Assembly: GCF_002860325.1 (NCBI RefSeq) | Contig: NZ_PKOJ01000003.1 | Coordinates: 124,001 to 188,000, forward strand | Direction of reading: 5' to 3' | Length of the DNA: 64,000 nucleotides | From: Neptunicoccus cionae | Lineage (GTDB): Bacteria; Pseudomonadota; Alphaproteobacteria; Rhodobacterales; Rhodobacteraceae | Part shown: in pieces, positions 2,835 through 39,878 of the stretch | How positions within the stretch are numbered: the first letter of the stretch is position 1 | Layout of the letters: the number at the start of each line of letters is the position of its first letter | Position numbers and translations under genes: made by a program | The notes under the pieces: generated by a model | Told to the model about the DNA's origin: nothing | Database searches by the model: none | What the model saw: only the letters and a program-made list of their open reading frames with translations

Positions 2835-4387
2835 TCCGCCGCCCGTGCGATCATGGCTTTGACTTCCGCAACCAGATCAGCGCGCGCGATTTCCTTTTGC
2901 GCAGGCTGGGCTTTCCACTCTTCGGAGGTTTCAATTTCTGCCGCCAGTCGCGCGCCAAGAGCCAAATCCTTGATCTGCACCACGCCGCGATCCTTTTCGT
3001 CGCCGCCTTCGATCACCGCGACCGGGCTTTCGCGCTTGTCGGCGTATTTCAACTGGTTGCCGAAATTCTTGGGATTGCCCAGATAAACCTCAGCGCGGAT
3101 ACCCGCATTGCGCAGCTCAGCCACCATCGCCTGATAGTCCGACATGCGGTCGCGGTCCATCACGGTCACAACCACCGGCCCTTTGGCTGTGCTGTTGATC
3201 CGCCCCTTTTCCCGCAGCGCCGCCAGCAGACGGTCCACACCGATCGACACGCCGGTTGCAGGGACTTCTTGTCCGGTGAAGCGTTTGACCAGATCGTCAT
3301 AGCGCCCGCCCCCCGCAACAGAGCCGAACTGCCGCTTGCGGCCCTTTTCGTCGAGGATTTCGAAGGTCAGTTCAGCCTCATAAACAGGGCCGGTATAATA
3401 GCCAAGGCCGCGCACTACAGAAGGATCGATCACGATACGGTCGGGTCCGTAACCTTGGGCTTGAAGTAAAGCAGATATTTGCTCCAACTCATCAACCCCT
3501 TCCAAACCAACCGTAGAGTTGGCCACGACGAGATCTCTAAGTAATGCAATAGTTTCACCATTGGTAGCTTGCTGGGCGTTCAGAAACGACAAAACAATAC
3601 TAGTCTGATCGTCACTTAGTCCGACTCCATCAATATAAGCGCCTGAGGAATCTAGCCGCCCTTTACCAAGCAGTTGTCGAACCCCGTTTTCACCTACCTT
3701 GTCAAACTTATCTATCGTCCGCATTACGTTTTCACGTATCGAGGTAACGTTCATTTTAGTGACGTTTTCTTCGATCTGTTCTTTACTTACCGCTGGGTCT
3801 TCTAGTTCAACTTGCTCTGACAGCCCCATCAACTCCAGCACACCATCCAAAACCTTCCGGTTGTTCACACGGATGATGTAGTCGCCGCGCGGGATGCCGA
3901 CAGCCTCTAGCGTGTCGGACAGCATCGCGCAGATTTCTGCGTCCGCTGCCATGCTCGCCGTGCCCACAGTATCCGCATCGCATTGATAAAACTGGCGATA
4001 ACGCCCCGGACCCGGCTTTTCGTTGCGCCAGACCGGACCCATCGCAAAACGGCGGTACGGGGACGGCAGATCATTGCGGTTCTGTGCATAAACGCGGGCC
4101 AGCGGCGCGGTCAGATCATAACGCAACGCCATCCAAGAATCGTCTTCGTCTTGCCACGCAAACACGCCTTCGTTGGGGCGGTCCACATCGGGCAGAAACT
4201 TGCCCAGCGCCTCAACCGTTTCCACAGCCGAAGACTCCAGCGGATCAAACCCGTAGCGATGATACACCGCCGTGATTTCGCGTAGCATATCGTTACGCTC
4301 AACCACTTCAGCCCCGAAATAGTCGCGAAACCCTTTGGGCGGCAGAGCCTTAGGGCGTTGAATTTTCTTTTTCTTGTCTTTGGCCAT
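2831..4387 (-). CDS. hisS: Histidyl-tRNA synthetase
   Basis: This is a class II aminoacyl-tRNA synthetase of 518 residues that charges tRNA-His. Visible are the N-terminal [16 protein letters not shown], motif 2 with [16 protein letters not shown] near residue 125, the histidine-A signature [16 protein letters not shown] at about 324, and motif 3 with [12 protein letters not shown] and [16 protein letters not shown]. The C-terminal anticodon-binding domain ends in a charged tail. The gene is somewhat long for bacterial HisRS. The stretch from about 3460 to 3860 (residues 176-309, the insertion region between motif 2 and the histidine-A motif) is markedly lower in GC than its flanks (see findings). 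It heads the operon with hisZ and hisG. Confidence 0.95.
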
Positions 4388-29831: not shown

Positions 29832-30776
29832 TCAGCTTGAGGGGGATACACCGGGCAGGATGCACAGCATTTCATAGATCAGGTTGGCCGCCACCAGCGC
29901 GGTGTTCCCGCTCGGGTCATAGGGGGGCGAGACCTCTACCAGATCGGTGCCCACGATGTTCAGCCCCTTCAACCCGCGGATCAGCTCCACAGCCTGTGGC
30001 GGGGTCAAACCGCAGATTTCCGGCGTGCCGGTTCCCGGTGCATAGGCCGGATCAAGGCTGTCGATGTCATAGGTGATATAACAAGGCGTATCGCCAATCT
30101 TTTCGCGGATGCGTTTCGCCAGAGGTGTCAGGGATTTGTGCCAGATTTCTTCAGCCTGAACCACCGTGAACCCCCAACGCCGCGCCTCGTCAAAATCGTC
30201 AGCGGCATAGCCGGTTCCGCGTAGCCCGATCTGAAAGACCTTATCATCCTGTAACAGCCCTTCTTCATGGGCGCGGCGGAACGGGGTGCCGTGGGCGATT
30301 TCCTCGCCAAACATATGTTCGTTAATATCCGCATGGGCATCCACATGCACCAGCGCCACCGGCCCGTGTTTTTTGGCAATCGCCCGCAGCACCGGCAGGC
30401 TGAGCGTGTGATCTCCGCCAAGGGTCATCGGGATCACATCATGCTGCAACACATCATCGTAATAGGCGGTGATCCGGCGGACAGTGTCCTTCAGATCAAA
30501 AGTATTGATCGCCACGTCGCCCAGATCGGCGCATTGCAGATGTTCAAACGGGGCGGCTTTGGTCCACATATTGTAGGGGCGCAGCATGTTGCTTTCGGCG
30601 CGGATTTGCTTGGGACCGAACCGCGTGCCCGACCGCCAGCTTGTGCCGATATCCATCGGGATACCGATAAAACCCACATCCAGCCCCTTCGCCGTTTCCG
30701 CCGCAGGCAGGCGCATGAAGGTGCCGGGTCCGGCGAAGCGGGGCATTTCGTTCCCGCCCATAGGTTGGTTGTACAT
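29832..30776 (-). CDS. Ureohydrolase, guanidinobutyrase/guanidinopropionase-like
   Basis: This 314-residue arginase-superfamily enzyme hydrolyses a guanidino group to urea. The binuclear manganese ligands are visible in LGGDHTLSLPVL, VHVDAHADINEHMFGE and YDIDSLDPAYAPGTG. The stretches GFIGIPMDIGTSWRSGTRFG and VEVSPPYDPSGNTALVAANL closely follow the Pseudomonas GbuA/GpuA enzymes that act on 4-guanidinobutyrate or 3-guanidinopropionate, more than SpeB. It starts one base after the stop of the speB-like gene, so the two are coupled. Substrate assignment between the two guanidino acids cannot be made by eye. Confidence 0.85.
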   Translation of the reverse strand: MYNQPMGGNEMPRFAGPGTFMRLPAAETAKGLDVGFIGIPMDIGTSWRSGTRFGPKQIRAESNMLRPYNMWTKAAPFEHLQCADLGDVAINTFDLKDTVRRITAYYDDVLQHDVIPMTLGGDHTLSLPVLRAIAKKHGPVALVHVDAHADINEHMFGEEIAHGTPFRRAHEEGLLQDDKVFQIGLRGTGYAADDFDEARRWGFTVVQAEEIWHKSLTPLAKRIREKIGDTPCYITYDIDSLDPAYAPGTGTPEICGLTPPQAVELIRGLKGLNIVGTDLVEVSPPYDPSGNTALVAANLIYEMLCILPGVSPSS

Positions 30777-30777
30777 G

Positions 30778-31746
30778 TCAGGCTCCGAATTTCCGGCGAT
30801 GAGCCCACAGGCACATCAGTTCCACAGCTACATGGGCACCCGCAATGGCCGTAGCGCCACTTACGTCATATTGTGGCGAGACTTCGACAACATCCATGCC
30901 GATCACGTTGATCCCTGCCAGTCCGCGCAGGATCGCTGCGGCCTGTGCGCTCGACAACCCGCCCCAGACAGGCGTGCCGGTTCCCGGTGCAAAAGCAGGA
31001 TCAAGGGCGTCGATGTCAAAGGTCACATAGGTTTTGTGATCGCCCAGAACCTCTTTGATCCGCGCCACGGTCGCTTCGGGACCGATGCGGTGCACCTCGG
31101 GCGCGTCAATGATATTGACGCCAAGCGTGTCCTCATTTGTGGTGCGAATGCCCACCTGTACCGAGCGTTCGGGAATAACCAGCCCCTCTTTCACCGCCTT
31201 GTAGAACATGGTGCCGTGGTCGATCCGTTCCGGATCGTCATCGACCCAAGTGTCGCTATGGGCATCAAATTGCAGCAGGGAAACCGGCCCGTGTTTTTCC
31301 ACATGGGCCTTCAGAATCGGATAGGTCACATAGTGATCGCCACCCAAGGACAGGCAGGCGGTATCGGTCGCCAGAATACCGGCGATATGGGCCTGCAACG
31401 CCTTGGGAAATTCCCACGTTTTCGCATGATCAAAAGCTACATCGCCATAATCTGCCACGTTGAATTCCACCAAGGGATCCACATCCCAGCCATAGGGCGC
31501 ATCGGGGGATTGCAGGGTAGACGCCTCGCGGATGGCGCGGGGGCCAAGGCGCGTGCCGGGACGGTTCGTGACAGCACAATCAAACGGAATGCCCGTCACC
31601 GCCAGATCAACCCCTGTCAGATCCTTGCTGTAGGTCCGGCGCAAGAAGGAGGTCACGCCGGCATAGGTTGCTTCAAACCCGTGCCCCTTGTAACCCTGCC
31701 GTGTAATACCTTCGTCGATGACTTTTGCTGCGTCTTCCAGTGCCAT
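30778..31746 (-). CDS. speB: Agmatinase
   Basis: This 322-residue ureohydrolase should convert agmatine to putrescine and urea. Manganese ligands lie in LSLGGDHYVTYPIL, LLQFDAHSDTWVDDDP and FDIDALDPAFAPGTGTPV. DHGTMFYKAVKEGL and SVQVGIRT match E. coli SpeB closely, and this distinguishes it from the following guanidinobutyrase-like paralogue. The ATG at 31746 is preceded by a purine-rich stretch; the longer frame to 31794 starts at a non-ATG codon. It leads the operon speB - guanidinobutyrase-like - alcohol dehydrogenase, with a SARP-type regulator gene 109 bases upstream on the same strand. Confidence 0.88.
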   Translation of the reverse strand: MALEDAAKVIDEGITRQGYKGHGFEATYAGVTSFLRRTYSKDLTGVDLAVTGIPFDCAVTNRPGTRLGPRAIREASTLQSPDAPYGWDVDPLVEFNVADYGDVAFDHAKTWEFPKALQAHIAGILATDTACLSLGGDHYVTYPILKAHVEKHGPVSLLQFDAHSDTWVDDDPERIDHGTMFYKAVKEGLVIPERSVQVGIRTTNEDTLGVNIIDAPEVHRIGPEATVARIKEVLGDHKTYVTFDIDALDPAFAPGTGTPVWGGLSSAQAAAILRGLAGINVIGMDVVEVSPQYDVSGATAIAGAHVAVELMCLWAHRRKFGA

Positions 31747-31829
31747 GATCTGCCTTTCAGTTGTTCGCCCACAGCTTTTGCATAAGGGCCACAAAAGACA
31801 AGTCTGCTTTGCACCACAGCAGCAAAATC

Positions 31830-31843
31830 TCCGTCATCGGAGC
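31830..31843 (-). terminator. Weak hairpin after the SARP-type gene
   Basis: CTCCG (31830-31834) and CGGAG (31839-31843) flank TCAT. On the reverse strand the hairpin is followed by ATTTT and lies 12 bases after the regulator stop, so it may partly terminate transcription before speB. The stem is short. Confidence 0.4.
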
Positions 31844-31855
31844 AAAGCACTGTGT

Positions 31856-33442
31856 CTAGTCGTCTGTCGGGAAATCCAGCAGGTTGGCATGGCGCAGGGT
31901 GCGCACAGGATAGGCCTCGTCGGATTTAAACCTTTCGAGCGAAAAATCAGGCTCCAGCCGTTTCAACTGCTCCGCCACGATATGCATTTTTTCCCGCTCT
32001 CCCGTGTGGGCGAACAAGGCCAGCAAGTGCCGTAGCGGAGGGCGGAAGTTCGGTGCGGCCTTGCGTGCGGATTCCCCAAAGAGGATCGCCTCGTCATAGC
32101 GCCCCGAGGCAATACAACTGATGCAATGGAACGTGTCCCACCAGTGGTGAAAACTGGACCGACCAGCCACCGAGGTGGCCTTTTTGGTCAGCGCATAGGC
32201 GGCCTCGCTGTCCCCGTCCCACATATTCGCACTGGCAAGGGACACCATGGAAAACGCACCCGACAGGTTCGGGTCGAGCCGCTGCTGCGCCACTGCATTG
32301 GCAGCACCAAGATCTGCGAACATCAGAACCTGCACCTGACTGACCAGCGCCTGCACCAGCGGGTTTTCCCCGTCCAGTTCCATCGCCTTGCGGTTCAATT
32401 CTTCGATCTGGTCCAGATCCGCCTGCGCATCGCTGCTGAGAAGCTCGGTCAGGCGGATGGTTTTCAGCAGGCTCTGCCACGCCAGAAACAACCCGTTGCG
32501 GTCAATATCAAAGGCATTTTCCAAAAGCCGGTCCGCAATATCGAGCCGCCCGGATTCAAAACTTTCCATTTCCCGCACGGCCCGCCGCGCCATGGCGGCA
32601 GAGGCCAGTTCGGGACGCTCTGAAGGGAAGGCCTTGCCCATCGCATCCAGTGTTTTTTCGGCAGCCTCAATCGTAATATCAGCCAGCAAATCCTCACTTG
32701 CTGCTTGCAATGCGCCACTGTTCACCAGCGCCTTTTGGGTGTGCAGCACCCGTCCGGTTCCCGGGTGGATCAGCCGGATGAAGGCAAGACTCTTGCCGTC
32801 TTCCTCGGCCACATGCGCACTGATTTCGATTTCTGCCTCATCCTGATCGGATTCTGCCATACGGACGTTCACCTGCCGCCACGCACGCACTTGTTCGGCA
32901 ATATTCTGGCCGATCTGATCCGCCAGAACTTCGCTTAGGATGCTTTTGGAGCCTTCCGGACCCTCACTTCTACGGGTGCGCAGGATCAGCCCGTGTTGCC
33001 GCGCAGCAAGCGCAACCTTGCGACGCTCGAAGGCATCGCGCACTTCGCCAAGCCATTCTTCAAAGGCGGGGTCGCGGACGCTAAGCCCTTCAAGCAGCTC
33101 TCTTGTGTCATCTTTGCGAATTTCAGCGCTGTCCCAGTCCACCACGACTGTACCCACATCCAGACTTGCCGTTGTACGGTCCACCACAAAACAGGATTTA
33201 TACGCCCCGAGCGCCTTGCGGATCTGGGTCAACTCCTGCCGCAGGCTTTGCCCGGCCTGTTCTGGATCGCGTCCGCTCCACAGCTTTTCTTCCAGAAACC
33301 GCCGAGGGCGCGCCTTTCCATCGGTCAGAGCAAGAATCGCCAGCAAGGCGCAGGATTTCGCCCCTTTGGGTGTCAGGTTTTCGCCGTTCGGCCCTGTAAT
33401 TTGCAGAGGCCCTATAGTTTGAATCGATAAAGGATTGGTCAC
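31856..33442 (-). CDS. SARP-type transcriptional regulator with tetratricopeptide-like C-terminus
   Basis: This 528-residue cytosolic protein has an N-terminal OmpR/SARP-like winged-helix domain (residues 1-100): LTPKGAKSCALLAILAL and RPRRFLEEKLWSGRDPEQAGQSLRQELTQIRKAL, the usual signature of bacterial activator proteins that regulate by a C-terminal helical domain. The remainder is largely alpha-helical with repeat-like segments (about 270-510) compatible with TPR units. Homologues in Alphaproteobacteria often sit beside the genes they control. Here candidates are the agmatinase operon downstream or the divergent collagen-haloperoxidase gene. Confidence 0.8.
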   Translation of the reverse strand: MTNPLSIQTIGPLQITGPNGENLTPKGAKSCALLAILALTDGKARPRRFLEEKLWSGRDPEQAGQSLRQELTQIRKALGAYKSCFVVDRTTASLDVGTVVVDWDSAEIRKDDTRELLEGLSVRDPAFEEWLGEVRDAFERRKVALAARQHGLILRTRRSEGPEGSKSILSEVLADQIGQNIAEQVRAWRQVNVRMAESDQDEAEIEISAHVAEEDGKSLAFIRLIHPGTGRVLHTQKALVNSGALQAASEDLLADITIEAAEKTLDAMGKAFPSERPELASAAMARRAVREMESFESGRLDIADRLLENAFDIDRNGLFLAWQSLLKTIRLTELLSSDAQADLDQIEELNRKAMELDGENPLVQALVSQVQVLMFADLGAANAVAQQRLDPNLSGAFSMVSLASANMWDGDSEAAYALTKKATSVAGRSSFHHWWDTFHCISCIASGRYDEAILFGESARKAAPNFRPPLRHLLALFAHTGEREKMHIVAEQLKRLEPDFSLERFKSDEAYPVRTLRHANLLDFPTDD

Positions 33443-33577
33443 AACGTCAAAATTCGCCTTTAAGTACTCTCGGACTTGCCCCCATCACAGAGCCTGCATC
33501 CAATGGTGGTATCTTAGCAGGTGTTTTGCGAGAATGTGAATTAATCGTGAATATACCCAGCGGCTTGCAGGGATGAT

Positions 33578-33606
33578 TTGACATAAACTCTGTCAATTCA
33601 TTGAAT
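33578..33606 (+). promoter_or_regulatory. Promoter with overlapping palindrome for the collagen-haloperoxidase gene
   Basis: A consensus -35 box TTGACA (33578-33583) is 17 bases from TTGAAT (33601-33606), which matches 4 of 6 positions of TATAAT. The -35 box is one arm of an inverted repeat, TTGACA-N7-TGTCAA (33578-33596), so a regulator could block or activate it. Transcription would start near 33613, upstream of the ribosome site for the ATG at 33635. Confidence 0.6.
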
Positions 33607-33634
33607 GAAGCAATTGTTTAAAGGAGTTTGGTTT

Positions 33635-34765
33635 ATGGCGATCTATACACCGCAAGGCCCTCAGGGACCGCAGGGGCCCCAAGGACCACAGGGTCCACAA
33701 GGCCCGCAAACACCACAGGGTCCGCAAGGCCCTCAAGGGCCGCAGGGACCGCAGGGTCAGGGCGGCTCCCCTTATCTGAGCACCGGATTGATAACCACGC
33801 GGGACGGGACGCAGCGGTTCTGGGATGGCACCCCCAAACGCCCCGTATCCTATCAGACCGGCAACGGCAGCAGCGCCGCACGGCAGTGGCGAACTTTCAA
33901 GAAGATGGGCAGCTACCCCAGATCCGCGGCCATTCTGGCAGAGATTATGGGGCTATTGCGCGTCGACAATACCGTTGCCCACAACGAGGCCGGTGTCAGT
34001 TTTCAGGATGGCTCCACTCTCACCCCGATTGTAACCCTGACACGTCCGGGTCTGTCCCAGTTCGAGGAACAGCTCTACTACCTGCGCACTGCAGCAGACC
34101 TGCGGTTCGACCGTCAGGCGGAAATCCAGTCCCAGATCGGTGATCTGACCCCCTATTTCGGTGCGCTCAGTTACCTGTCCAACGATACCCATAAGTGGAC
34201 GCTGGAACTCTTGGCGCTGGTGCAGCGGACCTGTCAGGTCTGCGAGATGCGGCTGAAGCAATTATTTGACTGCCCCCGCCCCATTGCCTTTGCGCAAGAG
34301 GTCCAGCCGATGATTACTTCACCGGACCACCCCGCATGGCCCAGCGGCCATGCGACCGAAAGTTTCGCTGCCGCGACCTTGATGGCACGGTTAAGCGATC
34401 CGAATTTTCAGTCCCCAGTGCAGGCAGTGCAGGACCAGTTGCCTGCCTACCGGCTGTCGGCCCGCATTGCGCTGAACCGCACTGTCGCAGGGGTCCATTT
34501 CCCGACCGACAGTGTGGCCGGCGCGACCCTAGGTATCGCGATTGCAGAGTTCATTATCAACTATTGCAGTCAGGCCGGCAAAACGTCCGCCTACGCGTTC
34601 AACGGCGGGGCATTTCGGGGGGACTTCAACCTGTCGCTTCTCGGGGAAACCATGCCCGGCAGCAATGATCCCACCATCACCCGCACCGAGATTTCCCTGC
34701 CAACCGCGGGGCGGGAAAACCTGTTGTCCAAACTCTGGGATGCTGCTGCGGCTGAATGGGGCTGA
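33635..34765 (+). CDS. Vanadium haloperoxidase/PAP2-type enzyme with collagen-like N-terminus
   Basis: This protein has 376 residues. Residues 6-44 are a collagen-like run of Gly-Pro-Gln triplets: six, one TPQ interruption at residue 26, then four more. The catalytic domain shows the full acid phosphatase/vanadium haloperoxidase set: Lys208 and Arg215 in KQLFDCPRP, His239 in PSGHATES, and Arg282 and His288 in [12 protein letters not shown]. There is no signal peptide. The ATG at 33635 has AAAGGAG 8 bases upstream, while the earlier ATG at 33605 falls inside the predicted -10 box. The triplet codons vary freely, implying selection on the protein. Whether it oxidises halides or cleaves phosphate is undetermined. 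Confidence 0.82.
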
Positions 34766-34788
34766 AGAAGCGTAGCACACGCAATAAA

Positions 34789-36879
34789 TTAAGGGCGGTA
34801 CCCGTCATCAAGACGGGGCCGCAACCCGACCTCCCCTGACACCGCAAGCGGACCAAGCTGGTCCAGCTCGTATTCAGGCTCAAAGGACCAGTCGAGCGCG
34901 CCAAGGGCTGCCATTTCCCGTTCCGCATTGACCGCAGGCGGATTCCACGGCCCGATATCCGCCCCGCTCGCAAACAACAGGGCCAACTGCCGCGTAATCT
35001 GCGGCGCCGCGACCGATGTGCCGGACATCACAGTTGCACTGCCACTCAGCGTGCCGCTCGCCAGCACGCCGCGCAGCGTCCAGCTACTGTCCCCGATAGC
35101 GGATACATTAGGTTCTTTAGCCGACAAAGGGCCCCCCGTAGCCGAATAAGGCGCTGCAAATCCGGTATCACACAAAGCGGCCCCCACAGTGTAAACCTGC
35201 TCGGGCATACCAGCGGAGAGCCAGCCGGATTCCGTGCCGATCCTTGTAACCGGCCCATCCGCCTTCGGGGCATAGGGCGTTTTGCGCGGCGGTTTCCAGA
35301 CCCAAAGCGCATTGTCATCCAGATAGGACTGACGCGCCAGCGCTTGAAATCCCAAGGGGCGGTCGTCCCGCTGGACTTCCAGCCGCACGGTTTGCGCCGG
35401 TGCGCCGGTGCCGAGCGTTATCCGCCACGGCCCGCTCGGCGCGAGCGGTTTGCCCGTTTCGAAACAGGCCGTCGGCGCGATCGCCAGCAGGTAGTATCCA
35501 GCCGTTTGCCCGCCGCCCTCCAGTGCCTGTGGTCCGATTGCATAGATTCGCGCAACCGCAGGAGCCGAACCGCGGGCCAGCGAAACGCTGTGACCGGCAG
35601 GAATGCTTCCTAACGAGAGCGGTTGTGACAGCAAGCTATCGATCCCGAGCGTCAGTTCCGCCGGATCATCTGGGCGCAGTTCCACAAAACTCGGCGTATA
35701 ATCCTCTGACTGCACCCGCAACGTCACCGACTGCGGAGTCTCTGGCTCCAGATCGATAGACCCGATCTGCCGCGTCAACCCGTCATTCCCGAAGGCATAC
35801 ACCACCCGCATCGGACTGCCGGTTCGGGTCTCTCGACGGTAAACCTCGGCTGCGATCTGGCGTTCGATCAGACTGGTCCCATCCTTTGATCCAGCCAAAA
35901 CCCCCAGTGAAATATTCACCACCAGCGGTCGATGTTGGCCTTCCACCAGCAACCTGTCCGCCTGCCAGATAATCCAGCGCAGGGCGCGCACCACATAGGG
36001 CTGCAATTTCGCACCTGATGTATCCTCGACCGCTTGCGGCGGCAGTTGTGTGGCCAGCATCGGACATGCGCCCAGTCCCTCCGGTTCCACCTGCGGATCG
36101 GCACCCGCTGCAATATCCGTAACTATCGTGCCGTGGGTGCTGGCCAGTTCGGATCCGCCCCCCGCCGTAATGCCGTGCCAGACCGGACTGATCTGCCGGT
36201 CGTACAGCGCCTTGTTCATTGCGCTGTATTCCGCGGCCTCTTCCAGCCTGCTTCCTTTGGTCAGAACAGTATCAATCTCCTCCCCACTCAGAACCCGACC
36301 ACAGGATATGGAGCAGTGTCCGTTGTCTTCGGTGATCTGATCTTCACACTGTAACCAGACGGCCGCCAGCCGCGTCTTGCGCTGATGCGCCGGTCCGGTT
36401 GTGAACCGCGCGTTCAGATAACCGATGGCATCATCAATCACCGCTAAAACCGGCGCAGGGCGTGGGACCCCGCCCGCCGGAGCAGGTGCGGAGGGCACCG
36501 GCGGGCGCGCCGCACCATTGGGAAGCGGTTGCAGCCATTTGCCATAATCCGCTGCGAAATCACCGGGTGTTTTTAAAACATGCAAGAACAGATCGGGTGC
36601 ATCGCCTTCGATCGGGGAATGATCCAACAGGCGGTCGAGATATTCCCGCTCCACCCCGTCCATCAGAAAATCCGCACCCTGCCCCGCATTATCAAGCTTG
36701 CGCTTCAGCCATCGAAGAGTCTTGTCCAGCGTCGCGGGCCGGCCCGTCGGCTTGACCCGCACCAGCAGGGGCCGGTAGCTTAGCGCACCGCCGGCGGGGG
36801 GCTGGTACACATGATCAAACCAGTCAAGGTATCCGTCTACGACAGGTGTTGCTTGCGGCGTGCTCCAGCTGAAATCCAT
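34789..36879 (-). CDS. S8 family serine peptidase (subtilase), no signal peptide
   Basis: This 696-residue protein has a subtilisin catalytic triad: Asp149 in LAVIDDAIG, His249 in ASTHGTIVTDIAAG and Ser622 in MSGTSVAAPQITRQL, with the oxyanion asparagine Asn365 in YAFGNDG. Between Asn365 and Ser622 lies an unusually long insert of about 250 residues that may form a beta-rich domain. Residues 1-130 are a proline-rich, charged prodomain-like region. No Sec signal is present, so it acts inside the cell or leaves by another route. It converges with the collagen-haloperoxidase gene, 23 bases apart. Confidence 0.87.
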   Translation of the reverse strand: MDFSWSTPQATPVVDGYLDWFDHVYQPPAGGALSYRPLLVRVKPTGRPATLDKTLRWLKRKLDNAGQGADFLMDGVEREYLDRLLDHSPIEGDAPDLFLHVLKTPGDFAADYGKWLQPLPNGAARPPVPSAPAPAGGVPRPAPVLAVIDDAIGYLNARFTTGPAHQRKTRLAAVWLQCEDQITEDNGHCSISCGRVLSGEEIDTVLTKGSRLEEAAEYSAMNKALYDRQISPVWHGITAGGGSELASTHGTIVTDIAAGADPQVEPEGLGACPMLATQLPPQAVEDTSGAKLQPYVVRALRWIIWQADRLLVEGQHRPLVVNISLGVLAGSKDGTSLIERQIAAEVYRRETRTGSPMRVVYAFGNDGLTRQIGSIDLEPETPQSVTLRVQSEDYTPSFVELRPDDPAELTLGIDSLLSQPLSLGSIPAGHSVSLARGSAPAVARIYAIGPQALEGGGQTAGYYLLAIAPTACFETGKPLAPSGPWRITLGTGAPAQTVRLEVQRDDRPLGFQALARQSYLDDNALWVWKPPRKTPYAPKADGPVTRIGTESGWLSAGMPEQVYTVGAALCDTGFAAPYSATGGPLSAKEPNVSAIGDSSWTLRGVLASGTLSGSATVMSGTSVAAPQITRQLALLFASGADIGPWNPPAVNAEREMAALGALDWSFEPEYELDQLGPLAVSGEVGLRPRLDDGYRP

Positions 36880-36934
36880 CCCGATACGTCCCTAAAATAC
36901 AAATTCCGTAAATGTTTATAAATATCAGACGGCA

Positions 36935-36974
36935 GAACCGGCATTTGTGTCAAACACAAGTTGCCTGCCGGTTC
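36935..36974 (-). terminator. Possible terminator after the PhoR-like gene
   Basis: GAACCGGCA (36935-36943) pairs exactly with TGCCGGTTC (36966-36974), and TTGTGT/ACACAA inside extends it with a bulge. It lies 37-76 bases after the kinase stop on the reverse strand. The T tract is poor, so it could also act as a protein site before the subtilase gene. Confidence 0.4.
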
Positions 36975-37010
36975 CCTATTAACGGATTATTCACACCCGC
37001 GCTCTCGGGC

Positions 37011-38048
37011 TTAAATTGCCCGCGGGATAATCACGGAAAAACGGCTGCCGACACCAACAGTGCTGTCGATCTGCAGACGCGCACGGTGGCGCATCAGGAT
37101 GTGTTTCACAATGGCCAGCCCCAATCCGGTGCCACCCTTGTCACGGGACCGCCCCTTGTCTATCCGGTAAAACCGCTCTGTCAGCCGCGCAATATGTTCC
37201 GGTGCGATTCCCTCGCCCTGATCGCTAACCGTTACGCGCACCATGTCCGGTTCCACCTTATCCACACAGGCCTCGATAGACACAACCGCCCCGTTACGAG
37301 AGTATTTTGCAGCGTTTTCGATTAGGTTTGCAAACACCTGTGTCAACTCGTCCGCGACCCCGATCACCTCGGGCAGGTCGGCAGGAATATCCAGTGTCAC
37401 AGTTGTCTTTTCCCGATCCAGTATCGGTTCAAGCGATGCGCTCAACCGGTCCAGAATTGGCCGTAAATTCACAACCGTTGTGGGCGCGTATTTTTCTTCG
37501 GACTGCAATTTCGACAAAGACAGAAGGTCATCAATCAGCCGTGCCATGCGTGCTGCTTCTTTCTCCATCAGATATAAAAACCGGTCCGAGGCTTCCGCAT
37601 CTGATCTTGCAGGGCCTTGAAGAGTCTCGATAAATCCATAGAGCGCGGTTAACGGAGAGCGCAATTCGTGGCTGACGTTCGCCACAAAATCCGACCGCAT
37701 CTGCTCGGCTTCCTGAATATGGCTGACATCCTCGAAACTCACCACCACCAGTGCGTCGGTGCGACTCGCGTCCGGATCAACCCGCACGGCTGTCATGGAA
37801 AAGGTCGTTGGCACAACCAGTTGCAGACGCACGTCCACTTTGGCCTGCCCGCCTTCGTCGATTGTATCCTCAACCGCGCGGATGCATCTCTTGTTTGGCA
37901 CATAATGGGCCAGCTTGCGCCCTTTCGTACCTGTCCCGAACAGGCTCACTGCAGATTCGTTGCGGAACACGATGGTCTGGTTGCTGTCCACCACAAATAC
38001 TGCGACGCCCAAAGCGTCAAGAATGGCTCTAATGCCTGCGTCCAACAT
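37011..38048 (-). CDS. Soluble PhoR-like sensor histidine kinase
   Basis: This 345-residue kinase has a PAS domain (residues 1-105, VAVFVVDSNQTIVFRNESAV), a HisKA dimerisation domain with the phospho-acceptor in NVSHELRSPLTALYGF (about residue 128) and a HATPase domain (NLIENAAKYSRNG, VSDQGEGIAPEHI, KGGTGLGLAIVKHI). The arrangement matches PhoR, but no transmembrane helix precedes the PAS domain. The start at 38048 was chosen because AAAGGAG lies 8 bases upstream; a frame to 38084 lacks it. No response regulator or phosphate-transport gene is adjacent, so the partner is unknown. Confidence 0.85.
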   Translation of the reverse strand: MLDAGIRAILDALGVAVFVVDSNQTIVFRNESAVSLFGTGTKGRKLAHYVPNKRCIRAVEDTIDEGGQAKVDVRLQLVVPTTFSMTAVRVDPDASRTDALVVVSFEDVSHIQEAEQMRSDFVANVSHELRSPLTALYGFIETLQGPARSDAEASDRFLYLMEKEAARMARLIDDLLSLSKLQSEEKYAPTTVVNLRPILDRLSASLEPILDREKTTVTLDIPADLPEVIGVADELTQVFANLIENAAKYSRNGAVVSIEACVDKVEPDMVRVTVSDQGEGIAPEHIARLTERFYRIDKGRSRDKGGTGLGLAIVKHILMRHRARLQIDSTVGVGSRFSVIIPRAI

Positions 38049-38248
38049 GTCCTGTCTCCTTTGCGCTCTCAATGCCGCATCCATGCGTCAGGCTCAACGC
38101 ATTACCTTCCGAAACGCGCGAATCCGGTACAGCCATGCAAAAAGCACATATCGGCTTTAACGGATTGTGCGTTGTCCAAACGCCTTCCAGCTCCCATTTA
38201 AGCCACAACAGTATGACAGGCTCCTGACATGGAGTGAAAGGAATGAAC

Positions 38249-38479
38249 ATGGCTTATATTACCGACACAAAATCAACCGTTGGCGGCACAATCTGGTCCG
38301 CCCTGCAAACCGCCGGCTCCGCTGTTCTGCGCTTCTTTGAAGACATGACACTTGCCGCGTCCCGCGTTGAAATCATCAATGCAATGCTGGACATGGACGA
38401 AGAAACCCTGCGCAGCCGCTACAACATTTCGCGGGACCAGATCGTTTCTTACGTTTTCCGCGACAAACTGGTCCCCTGA
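38249..38479 (+). CDS. Small conserved protein, possibly DUF1127-like
   Basis: This protein of about 76 residues begins MAYITDTKSTVGG. It has a helical middle (FFEDMTLAASRVEIINAMLDM) and a C-terminal segment RYNISRDQIVSYVFRDKL. It loosely recalls DUF1127-type small proteins of Alphaproteobacteria, though the typical arginine-rich motif is missing, so the family is tentative. AAGGA lies 6 bases before the ATG at 38249; an in-frame ATG at 38243 is also possible. It is divergent from the PhoR-like gene. The function is unknown. Confidence 0.65.
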   Translation: MAYITDTKSTVGGTIWSALQTAGSAVLRFFEDMTLAASRVEIINAMLDMDEETLRSRYNISRDQIVSYVFRDKLVP

Positions 38480-38489
38480 TTTAACGCTG

Positions 38490-39878
38490 TCAGGCCCACA
38501 AACCGTCAGACTTGAGACCGGCTAAGGTCTCATCCAGAGATTTCACCGCCCGCTCGAACAGAAGGTCGATATTTGCCTCAGTCATGATCAGCGGCGGTGA
38601 AATAATCATTGTATCCCCCACATGACGCATGACCAGACCGTTGGCGAAACACCGTTCGCGACAACGCAGACCGACCGTGCCCTTATCAGCTTTGAACGGC
38701 GCACGATTGGCCTTGTCCGGTGACAGTTCAAGCGCCCCCATCATACCGATAATACGCGCCTCCCCGACCATCGGGTGATCGCTGATCTCGCGCCATTTTT
38801 GCGCAAGATAGGGCGCGGCCGTATCGCGCACATGTTCAATCACCTTTTCCTCTTCCAGAAGGCGCAAATTCTCCAGTGCCACTGCACAGGCCACCGGATG
38901 TCCGGAATAGGTGTAGCCGTGGTTGAATTCGTCCGAGCTGATCACCTCGGCGACTTCGTCACTCAGAATGGAACCGCCAATCGGCTGGTAGCCGCTCGAC
39001 AGACCCTTGGCGATTGTCATGATGTCGGGACGGATCCCCAATGTTTGTGACCCAAACCAGTTGCCGGTCCGCCCGAAACCGCAAATCACCTCATCCGCGA
39101 TCAGCAGGATGTTGCGCTCGTCACAGATCCGCTGGATTTCCGGCCAATAGGTTTCCGGCGGAATGATCACAGCGCCCGCACCTTGAATCGGCTCTGCGAT
39201 AAAGGCCGCAACCTTGTCTTCCCCGATCCGGTCAATCTCTGCCTCCAGCGCGCGGGCGCGGGCCAAGCCGAATTCCGCAGGGTCCATATCCCCGCCTTCG
39301 CCGTACCAGTAAGGCTGGTCGATATGGGTGATGTCAGGGATCGGCATCCCGCCCTGCGCGTGCATGCCCGCCATCCCGCCAAGCGACCCGCTGCCCATAG
39401 ACGACCCGTGATAGGCGTTCTTGCGGCTGATGATGGTTTTCTTCTCCGGTTTGCCCTTCAGCGCCCAGTAATGACGCACCAGACGGATGTTGGTGTCATT
39501 GGCTTCAGAGCCTGATCCGGCAAAGAACACATGGTTCAGATCACCCGGCGCCAGTTCGGCGATACGCGCGGACAAAGCCACAACAGGAGGATGAGTAGTC
39601 TGGAAAAACGTATTATAATAAGGCAGTTGCTCCATTTGCGCGGCAGCGGCTTCGGCCAGTTCCTTGCGCCCGTAGCCCAGATTGACACACCACAGGCCAG
39701 CCATCCCGTCCAGGATCTCAACCCCGTCGCTATCGGTCAGCATGACACCATCCGCCCGCGTGATGACCCGCGCACCTTTCTGCGACAGTTCCGCACCGTG
39801 GGTAAAAGGATGAATGTGATGGGCCGCATCCAACCGCTGCAAGTCAGCCGTTGGCAAGTGGTTGTCGATCCGTTTCAT
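38490..39878 (-). CDS. Class III omega-aminotransferase (putrescine/amine-pyruvate type)
   Basis: This 462-residue PLP enzyme of fold type I transfers amino groups from an amine or omega-amino acid. Key segments are FFAGSGSEANDTNIRLVRHYW, NAYHGSSMGSGSLGGM, LLIADEVICGFGRTG and the Schiff-base lysine in MTIAKGLSSGYQPIGG. The sequence resembles the SpuC-like putrescine-pyruvate aminotransferases; putrescine made by the nearby speB product would suit, but this is inference. I chose the ATG at 39878 because AAGGAG lies 6 bases upstream, whereas the GTG at 39884 overlaps that site. It is full length. Confidence 0.88.
   Translation of the reverse strand: MKRIDNHLPTADLQRLDAAHHIHPFTHGAELSQKGARVITRADGVMLTDSDGVEILDGMAGLWCVNLGYGRKELAEAAAAQMEQLPYYNTFFQTTHPPVVALSARIAELAPGDLNHVFFAGSGSEANDTNIRLVRHYWALKGKPEKKTIISRKNAYHGSSMGSGSLGGMAGMHAQGGMPIPDITHIDQPYWYGEGGDMDPAEFGLARARALEAEIDRIGEDKVAAFIAEPIQGAGAVIIPPETYWPEIQRICDERNILLIADEVICGFGRTGNWFGSQTLGIRPDIMTIAKGLSSGYQPIGGSILSDEVAEVISSDEFNHGYTYSGHPVACAVALENLRLLEEEKVIEHVRDTAAPYLAQKWREISDHPMVGEARIIGMMGALELSPDKANRAPFKADKGTVGLRCRERCFANGLVMRHVGDTMIISPPLIMTEANIDLLFERAVKSLDETLAGLKSDGLWA

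Follow-up and report, generated by a model that had tools for sequence, protein, structure and literature searches.

The cassette locus in Neptunicoccus cionae

The window analysed here is a stretch of 64,000 nucleotides from Neptunicoccus cionae (contig NZ_PKOJ01000003.1), in which the gene for an enzyme with an N-terminal tandem array lies between genes for a regulator and a subtilase. The features discussed below are the following:

31856..33442, reverse strand: cassette regulator, with putative AfsR/SARP-like winged helix, middle domain and TPR domain
33535..33551, forward strand: direct repeat TGTGAA-N5-CGTGAA, 11-bp period, putative operator (11/12 bases)
33635..34765, forward strand: enzyme open reading frame (ATG at 33635, 376 aa), PAP2-superfamily protein
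33647..33757, forward strand: tandem array TPQ(GPQ)6TPQ(GPQ)4G, enzyme residues 5-41
33770..34762, forward strand: PAP2-superfamily domain (acid phosphatase / vanadium haloperoxidase type), residues 46-376, from Pfam, AlphaFold2 and Foldseek
34256..34510, forward strand: site residues Lys208, Arg215, His232, Ser237, Gly238, His239, Arg282, His288 and Asp292
34789..36879, reverse strand: cassette subtilase (S8) with its catalytic residues intact; inspection by eye shows no signal peptide

The start codon of the enzyme gene (ATG 33635) is shortly preceded by AAGGAG, and the N-terminus of the protein reads MAIY-TPQ-(GPQ)6-TPQ-(GPQ)4-G-QGG, followed by a short linker and the PAP2-superfamily domain. 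The array consists of twelve G/T-P-Q triplets, with threonine replacing glycine at T5 and T26, and its regularity (36 residues, one mismatch) is far beyond chance. A first-pass annotation of this DNA had described an open reading frame in which Gly-Pro-Gln triplets are joined to a PAP2/haloperoxidase-type domain, and both the reading frame and Pfam bear this out; its statement that a Sec signal is absent agrees with inspection of the sequence by eye. All four glycine and all four proline codons occur within the array, in keeping with the further claim that the repeat is maintained at the protein level. An exact (GPQ)3 was found in no other gene of the same genome. The five near relatives in which the N-terminus is present (L002-L005 and L015, 73-96% identical) keep the array with a variable copy number, and L010, a distant congeneric member (36% identical), carries GYS instead of GPQ. 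In the AlphaFold2 models, which were made for the enzyme alone and the regulator alone as monomers, the array is disordered (block pLDDT means of 40-59 for residues 1-40).

The catalytic domain

The enzyme matches PF01569 with 54 bits (cut-off 27.2; Pfam E 1.9e-14), as do 49/49 family sequences at E 0.01 or better. The PAP2 superfamily is characterised by the motif K-x6-RP, PSGH, R-x5-H-x3-D, which is conserved in the family alignment: 42 aligned sequences show no variation at Lys208, Arg215, His232, Ser237, His239, Arg282, His288 and Asp292, and hardly any at Gly238. The five site residues initially proposed (Lys208, Arg215, His239, Arg282, His288) are therefore among the invariant positions, and we take the site residues to correspond to those of the vanadate site in vanadium haloperoxidases. 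The His232 column, five residues before the motif serine, where vanadium haloperoxidases have a second His or a Phe, aligns with His411 of the bromoperoxidase VBPO (1qi9), a residue with a role in halide specificity.

The enzyme model has a mean pLDDT of 88.7, confident in the domain and not in the array. Its nearest structures in Foldseek are acid phosphatases (7f17, E 4e-5, TM 0.65 on target), with TM-scores of about 0.5-0.65 (on target). The enzyme has its fold core and its K-RP / PSGH / R-H-D motif in common with LpxE and with class A acid phosphatases (7f17, PhoN, E. blattae AP), to which the enzyme adds an N-terminal part, the array and the invariant histidine five residues before the motif serine, where 7f17 has a glycine in place of His232. 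Vanadium haloperoxidases (1qi9 VBPO, 4cit/4usz VIPO, 3w35 VCPO) share the His411 equivalent but differ from the enzyme in overall fold, with TM-scores of 0.10-0.35, and a haloperoxidase fold beyond the common core was not found in the enzyme model in this Foldseek comparison. The first assignment to a haloperoxidase/PAP2 type stands as regards the PAP2 domain and the site residues. The invariant His232 is shared with VBPO, while the predicted fold lies nearer to acid phosphatases; the models indicate a phosphatase or haloperoxidase type of enzyme whose predicted fold is closest to acid phosphatases.

A conserved regulator and array-enzyme pair

Relatives were collected from near genomes (61 searched, 14 with a match) and from a named genome collection, where the best 80 of 539 relatives were kept, giving 79 loci. 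Enzyme-family matches at E 1e-15 occur in 120/394 genomes of the family sample, 20/398 of the phylum sample and 13/385 of the class sample, which makes it chiefly a family of Rhodobacteraceae; by record titles among the best 80 of 539, it is also found in other Alphaproteobacteria and in Burkholderiales. The subtilase profile matches 98/394 family-sample genomes at E 1e-20.

Gene order was counted in 141 members (score at least 100) flanked on either side by 1.5 kb or more. The regulator profile matches in 141/141 of these loci, upstream of the enzyme in 133, and the subtilase profile in 138/141, downstream of the enzyme in all 138, with a median gap of 5.5 nt between the enzyme and subtilase open frames, stop to stop; the loci without subtilase are L231, L243 and L245. 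In L293, which is not part of this set, the subtilase lies beyond the regulator, on its far side. The identities of the three cassette proteins covary over 121 cassettes (r 0.82, 0.83, 0.77). In thirteen regions with distant enzymes (L282-L292, L294, L295) the regulator is present in 13/13 and the subtilase in 0/13, while the array is found in 12/13 and the thirteenth, L283, has a GR-rich repeat. Since this distant subfamily keeps the regulator and has no subtilase, the constant pair is the regulator and the array enzyme. Judged by its conservation, the window open reading frame is shown to be the enzyme of a regulator and array-enzyme (plus subtilase) cassette. NCBI annotates the enzyme as a phosphatase PAP2 family protein, the subtilase as an S8 family serine peptidase and the regulator as a winged-helix or hypothetical protein; the present analysis points to a function for a cassette known only by such generic names.

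Seen from the regulator, 30 loci were examined (L315 being the same gene as L325), and an array open reading frame lies beside the regulator in 21 of them, that of L302 being cut by the end of the stretch. Eight show no array open reading frame: seven with regulator scores of 128-245 bits, and L306 with 425 bits, probably at a contig end. Array-bearing loci go down to 208 bits, and the score ranges of the two kinds overlap. From the side of the subtilase, whose nearest solved relatives are Csp-type germination proteases, five weak relatives (L276-L280) have no array neighbour within the stretch fetched. The idea that the subtilase is a tripeptidyl-peptidase clipping N-terminal tripeptides was rejected, as periods of 4-6 residues and the apparent homology of the leader speak against it: the leader of period-3 arrays is a multiple of 3 residues in 119/148 cases, and a 3-residue leader also occurs in 10/23 period-4 arrays, so it looks homologous rather than like a cutting frame.

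Arrays across the family

Relatives were counted as distinct when their last 150 residues differ, and near-identical relatives are therefore counted separately; counts over all arrays overstate independence because the sequences are related, and tests with one array per unit or with sister pairs are safer. Among 200 distinct open reading frames with a profile score of at least 100, 194 carry a tandem array and 2 are cut short by a contig edge. In the remaining 4 no array was detected, one of them having an assembly gap and another an array in a shifted frame. When the profile score is lowered to at least 60, 211 arrays ahead of the catalytic domain are counted in 220 distinct relatives; L283 is among them because of a GR-rich repeat, and L282 because of a TH repeat that is irregular. 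Four were set aside (L086, with a scaffold gap in the array, and L011, L155 and L165, with repeats that are doubtful or far from the start), and no array was detected in five: L006, L085 (truncated), L190 (a GAQ array is present in another reading frame), L226 (degenerate NTRS-type) and L242 (none). The first-pass annotation had proposed looking for homologues that lack the repeat at random; the array is almost never absent (211/220), but its unit is exchanged.

The 211 arrays contain 121 different units, with rotations merged. Their period is 3 in 169 arrays (for example NSQ, GHE, GGL, GYD, GRS, SAY, LQS, QTQ, TPH, ENW, NSS and DAR), 4 in 27, 2 in 8, 5 in 5 and 6 in 2, the other periods including GGTH, GGGAG, GQ and TK; GGI and NRD are further units among the relatives. 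Glycine is absent from 38/121 units, and cysteine occurs in none. Within each array the unit is kept almost perfectly: only 26/6319 array residues (0.4%) depart from their own unit, spread over 21/211 arrays, six of which owe the mismatch to the TPQ shared by the GPQ clade. The array begins at most 20 residues from the last in-frame upstream methionine in 191/197 counted arrays that have such a methionine, while 14 counted arrays lack one, and in the distant members L282, L285 and L295 it lies deeper inside the open frame. The near-universal presence of arrays whose units differ between lineages suggests preservation of exact repetition as such and not of a particular sequence. If no residue is common to the arrays of a family while exact internal repetition is, this would clearly exemplify selection acting on regularity instead of on sequence. 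No published description of an array-enzyme architecture of this kind appeared in the portion of the literature covered by our searches, within which the claim that it is undescribed holds.

Other open reading frames were scanned for runs of at least 15 residues and at least 4 copies, which in the family-gene loci among L001-L128 gave three arrays, either of AAPAKK type or of the strand opposite to that type. The strand opposite to the arrays can yield long repeat open reading frames that are annotation artefacts (L301 1113-1425, forward, PAPP; L289 2380-2854, reverse, TAPS). Signal-peptide-like stretches were seen by eye in the distant members L287 and L283, either preceding the repeat or opening the frame.

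Possible collagen-like structure and self-assembly

The array of the window protein is a Gly-X-Y repeat over a long stretch (12 triplets, with the two threonines), like that of bacterial collagen-like proteins (PF01391; Scl, BclA, Lcl), and scores 24.3 bits against the Pfam collagen model PF01391, below the cut-off of 27.2. Ten full-length relatives were searched with their arrays included; 4/10 match at E 0.1 and 6/10 do not, and the cut-off is passed by 1/10, a GNQ member with 36.3 bits, the other three matches being below it. The homologues, however, do not retain Gly-X-Y: glycine stands at every third place in 118/211 arrays and not in the other 93/211, and the units include LQS, QTQ, ENW and TPH. 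For this reason collagen cannot be the common denominator of the family, which differs from bacterial collagen-like proteins in its 38 glycine-free units, in the sub-threshold score of the window protein and in the position of the repeat near the start of an enzyme; nor was a trimerisation domain noticed. The original collagen interpretation is compatible with the repeat of the window protein and is not supported as a general explanation. A triple helix is possible for the Gly-X-Y members, including the window protein; a common structure based on glycine at every third place (collagen or polyglycine) fits 118/211 arrays and is excluded for the rest.

A broader version of this idea is that the arrays of one protein associate with each other, in triple helices, bundles or gels, so that each cassette enzyme gathers its own kind, with GPQ as the collagen-like version. 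Such lateral packing needs exact periodicity, and glycine at every third place in more than half of the arrays, the GNQ member above the collagen cut-off and the observation that a unit is common to two members of one genome in 0/21 mapped multi-member genomes all favour it. The last point is nevertheless weak, because the units are so many and two entries (L165, L283) have doubtful repeats; moreover, no single packing fits units that range from GGI and LQS to NRD, DAR and TPH with periods of 2 to 6, and the array is disordered in the (monomer) model. On balance, we regard self-association as somewhat unlikely.

Codon choice and unit turnover

The exactness of the protein repeat is not mirrored in the DNA. 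Neighbouring copies use the same codon in 1490/5296 column comparisons, where 1984 +/- 29 are expected from shuffling codons within columns (z -16.9), and hence differ at 3806/5296. The avoidance persists with one array per unit (932/3226 against 1252 expected, z -13.3) and in 25 arrays of the distant subfamily (169/520 against 207 expected, z -4.2), and a control within the catalytic domain, in which each codon was compared with the next one encoding the same residue, shows no avoidance (z +0.7). Codon diversity exceeds the prediction from local codon usage in 65/96 arrays. Codons of copies two apart are more alike than expected (z 7.6 over all arrays; z -0.2 in distant members), as alternation together with some two-copy duplication would give. 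The simplest reading of these sequence patterns would be selection for repetition in the protein combined with selection against, or loss of, repetition in the DNA, a natural codon strategy that keeps protein repeats stable in DNA.

Two explanations in which the array has little or no specific role can be weighed at this point. Neutral DNA slippage without any function of the protein repeat could explain that copy number varies and that blocks are duplicated, as in L098, but it would make neighbouring codons alike, and they are significantly unalike; the array is also very rarely absent and is in frame in the 211 counted cases, which leaves slippage alone hardly credible. The alternative of a generic low-complexity tail (an entropic spacer, a solubility tag or a slippery protease-stalling sequence), for which only low complexity matters, accommodates the indifference to the unit, the disorder in the model and the position near the start in most members. 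It does not demand exact order, yet mismatches are limited to 26/6319 residues while codons differ at 3806/5296 comparisons, and we consider it rather unlikely.

Units turn over between lineages. GGF x12 and GGL x11 arrays are wholly different in enzymes with 89% identity in the catalytic domain, SDS and GDS units are found at 88%, and at 84% GGAS faces GAS, a change of period as well. Among independent sister pairs with enzyme identity over 0.45 and different period-3 units, 9/18 differ by a single residue, against 12.8% expected for random unit pairs (p 1.5e-4). The array of L094, which alternates AGQ and AGR, is a possible intermediate in a unit change, and together with the single-residue changes it indicates that a unit often changes step by step, each change spreading over the whole array. 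The number of copies changes as well (8 against 17 copies in L067 and L072, at 99% enzyme identity). Purifying selection is not the sole force, since multi-copy duplication, seen in the enrichment at two copies' distance and in L067/L072, also homogenises arrays. Statistically, the array is established as an element that is indifferent to its unit and strict in its repetition: copies are identical, their codons differ, and the unit drifts between lineages.

A 24-base block is repeated about three times in the GGAS array of L098, a trace of multi-copy duplication. In the genome of L175, two cassette enzyme genes with the units SAY and GS lie about 5 kb apart.

The regulator and its candidate operator

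The winged helix of the window regulator has a weak profile match to AfsR (8hvr, E 1e-3) and, also weakly, to a ToxR-type activator, and its Trans_reg_C match is below the Pfam cut-off. The protein carries a TPR domain, and its model finds fold matches in TPR proteins and in the CadC periplasmic domain, so that CadC-type regulators resemble it in this fold match. Ten regulators were scanned for further domains, nine of them from co-directional cassettes: a class III cyclase domain is matched by six, all co-directional, although one of these matches falls short of the Pfam cut-off, and FlgO is matched by two.

Upstream of the enzyme gene, the direct repeat CGTGAA-N5-CGTGAA is found with at least 10/12 bases in 86/112 divergent cassettes, against 2 in shuffled sequence, its median distance to the ATG being 106 nt; with a period of 10 bp, 26/112 divergent cassettes reach at least 10/12 bases, and other spacings 5 to 9. 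It is present in 2/56 co-directional and 3/24 unclassified cassettes and in 2/121 random control stretches of the same loci, and counting by unit, in 43/62 first-listed members. SARP operators have repeats spaced 11 bp (PMC10936776). By its position, the direct repeat is likely the operator of the cassette regulator, which would then resemble AfsR/SARP regulators in its TPR and its 11-bp operator spacing, besides the weak AfsR match of its winged helix. It differs from them in being paired with an array enzyme, in that some members match a cyclase domain, and in the nucleotide-binding (NOD) domain of AfsR, which Pfam does not report in the cassette regulator.

Co-variation of the unit with the regulator was addressed in 40 independent sister pairs with enzyme identity of 0.5-0.9, 22 of which have the same unit. 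At equal enzyme identity, same-unit pairs have more similar regulator TPR domains (+0.056, p 0.028; 40 pairs) and winged-helix parts (+0.064, p 0.020; 38 pairs), these p values being raw, among 6 domain and 15 window tests. No such effect was seen in the middle part of the regulator (p 0.59) or, at enzyme identity 0.5-0.9, in the subtilase (p 0.39); at 0.5-0.72 (32 pairs) the subtilase effect comes close (p 0.059). With the rest held constant, the TPR effect has p 0.15. The sequences thus give a hint of co-variation between unit and regulator.

What the array may do

A tail defined by composition only does not account for the fixed order within the arrays, whereas a lattice made up of identical copies and recognised by some reader does. 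Our preferred reading, to which we give a probability of about one in three, is that the array is a periodic recognition element that needs a regular lattice, and that its likeliest reader is the TPR superhelix of the cassette regulator, a partner that is present throughout and has a TPR domain. The array would act as a multivalent element built on identical copies, the TPR superhelix of the cassette's own regulator would read it, and the regulator would probably bind at the enzyme gene's promoter, which would let the enzyme hold or release its own regulator; the subtilase, where present, might cut the array or the enzyme and thereby reset the state. Several observations speak against this reading: the co-variation with the regulator is weak, the DNA-binding winged-helix part co-varies with the unit as much as the TPR does, the TPR repeats of the regulator are not identical to each other, no single spacing suits units of 2, 4, 5 and 6 residues, AlphaFold2 models the array as disordered, duplication also homogenises arrays, the array of some distant members lies deeper inside the frame, and the 118/211 arrays with glycine at every third place are also explicable by a glycine-based helix.

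A stronger version of this reading, which we hold to be unlikely, is a private repeat code, in which the TPR superhelix of each regulator would read the array of its own cassette in register, and unit and groove would drift together into dozens of orthogonal pairs, mainly in Rhodobacteraceae. The same concept underlies the designed repeat proteins of PMC10115654, which recognise repeated tripeptides through superhelical matching; the binding of array and regulator proposed here would be a natural counterpart. The cassettes offer about a hundred natural unit-regulator pairs in which recognition of repeat peptides, or assembly, could be tested.

The regulator could also sense the array in pieces. 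In this alternative, the array is a multi-copy peptide signal that proteases (the subtilase where present) cut into identical peptides, which are sensed by the TPR regulator in an RRNPP-like manner, with the unit as pherotype. Genes for a TPR regulator and a protease adjoin a precursor of identical copies, just as an RRNPP-type receptor gene adjoins its precursor, and the turnover of units and the variable copy number are compatible with it. The copies, however, stand head to tail without spacers, no export signal is evident by eye, the subtilase is found in 0/13 regions of the distant subfamily and does not clearly track the unit, and a single faulty copy would weaken such a signal only slightly, yet the mismatch rate is held at 0.4%. 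We therefore judge a peptide signal quite improbable.

Neighbouring genes and other observations

An anti-phage defence function was considered for the cassette and dropped: enzyme and regulator have no match to a PADLOC defence model, and the subtilase matches only IetS (E 0.011). No Rfam family reaches its gathering score in window positions 30000-38500. Beyond the regulator, two adjacent genes named by eye as arginase-family-like occupy window positions 29832-31794 on the reverse strand; the one that was tested has no homologue among the neighbours of other cassettes. In L281, a 742-aa open reading frame combines a strong subtilase-profile match with weak regulator and enzyme matches, possibly as a chimera or through an assembly fault. 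Finally, the cassette of L136, on a Paracoccus plasmid, lies near genes for a caspase-family protein, a TssH ATPase and a calcium-binding protein.
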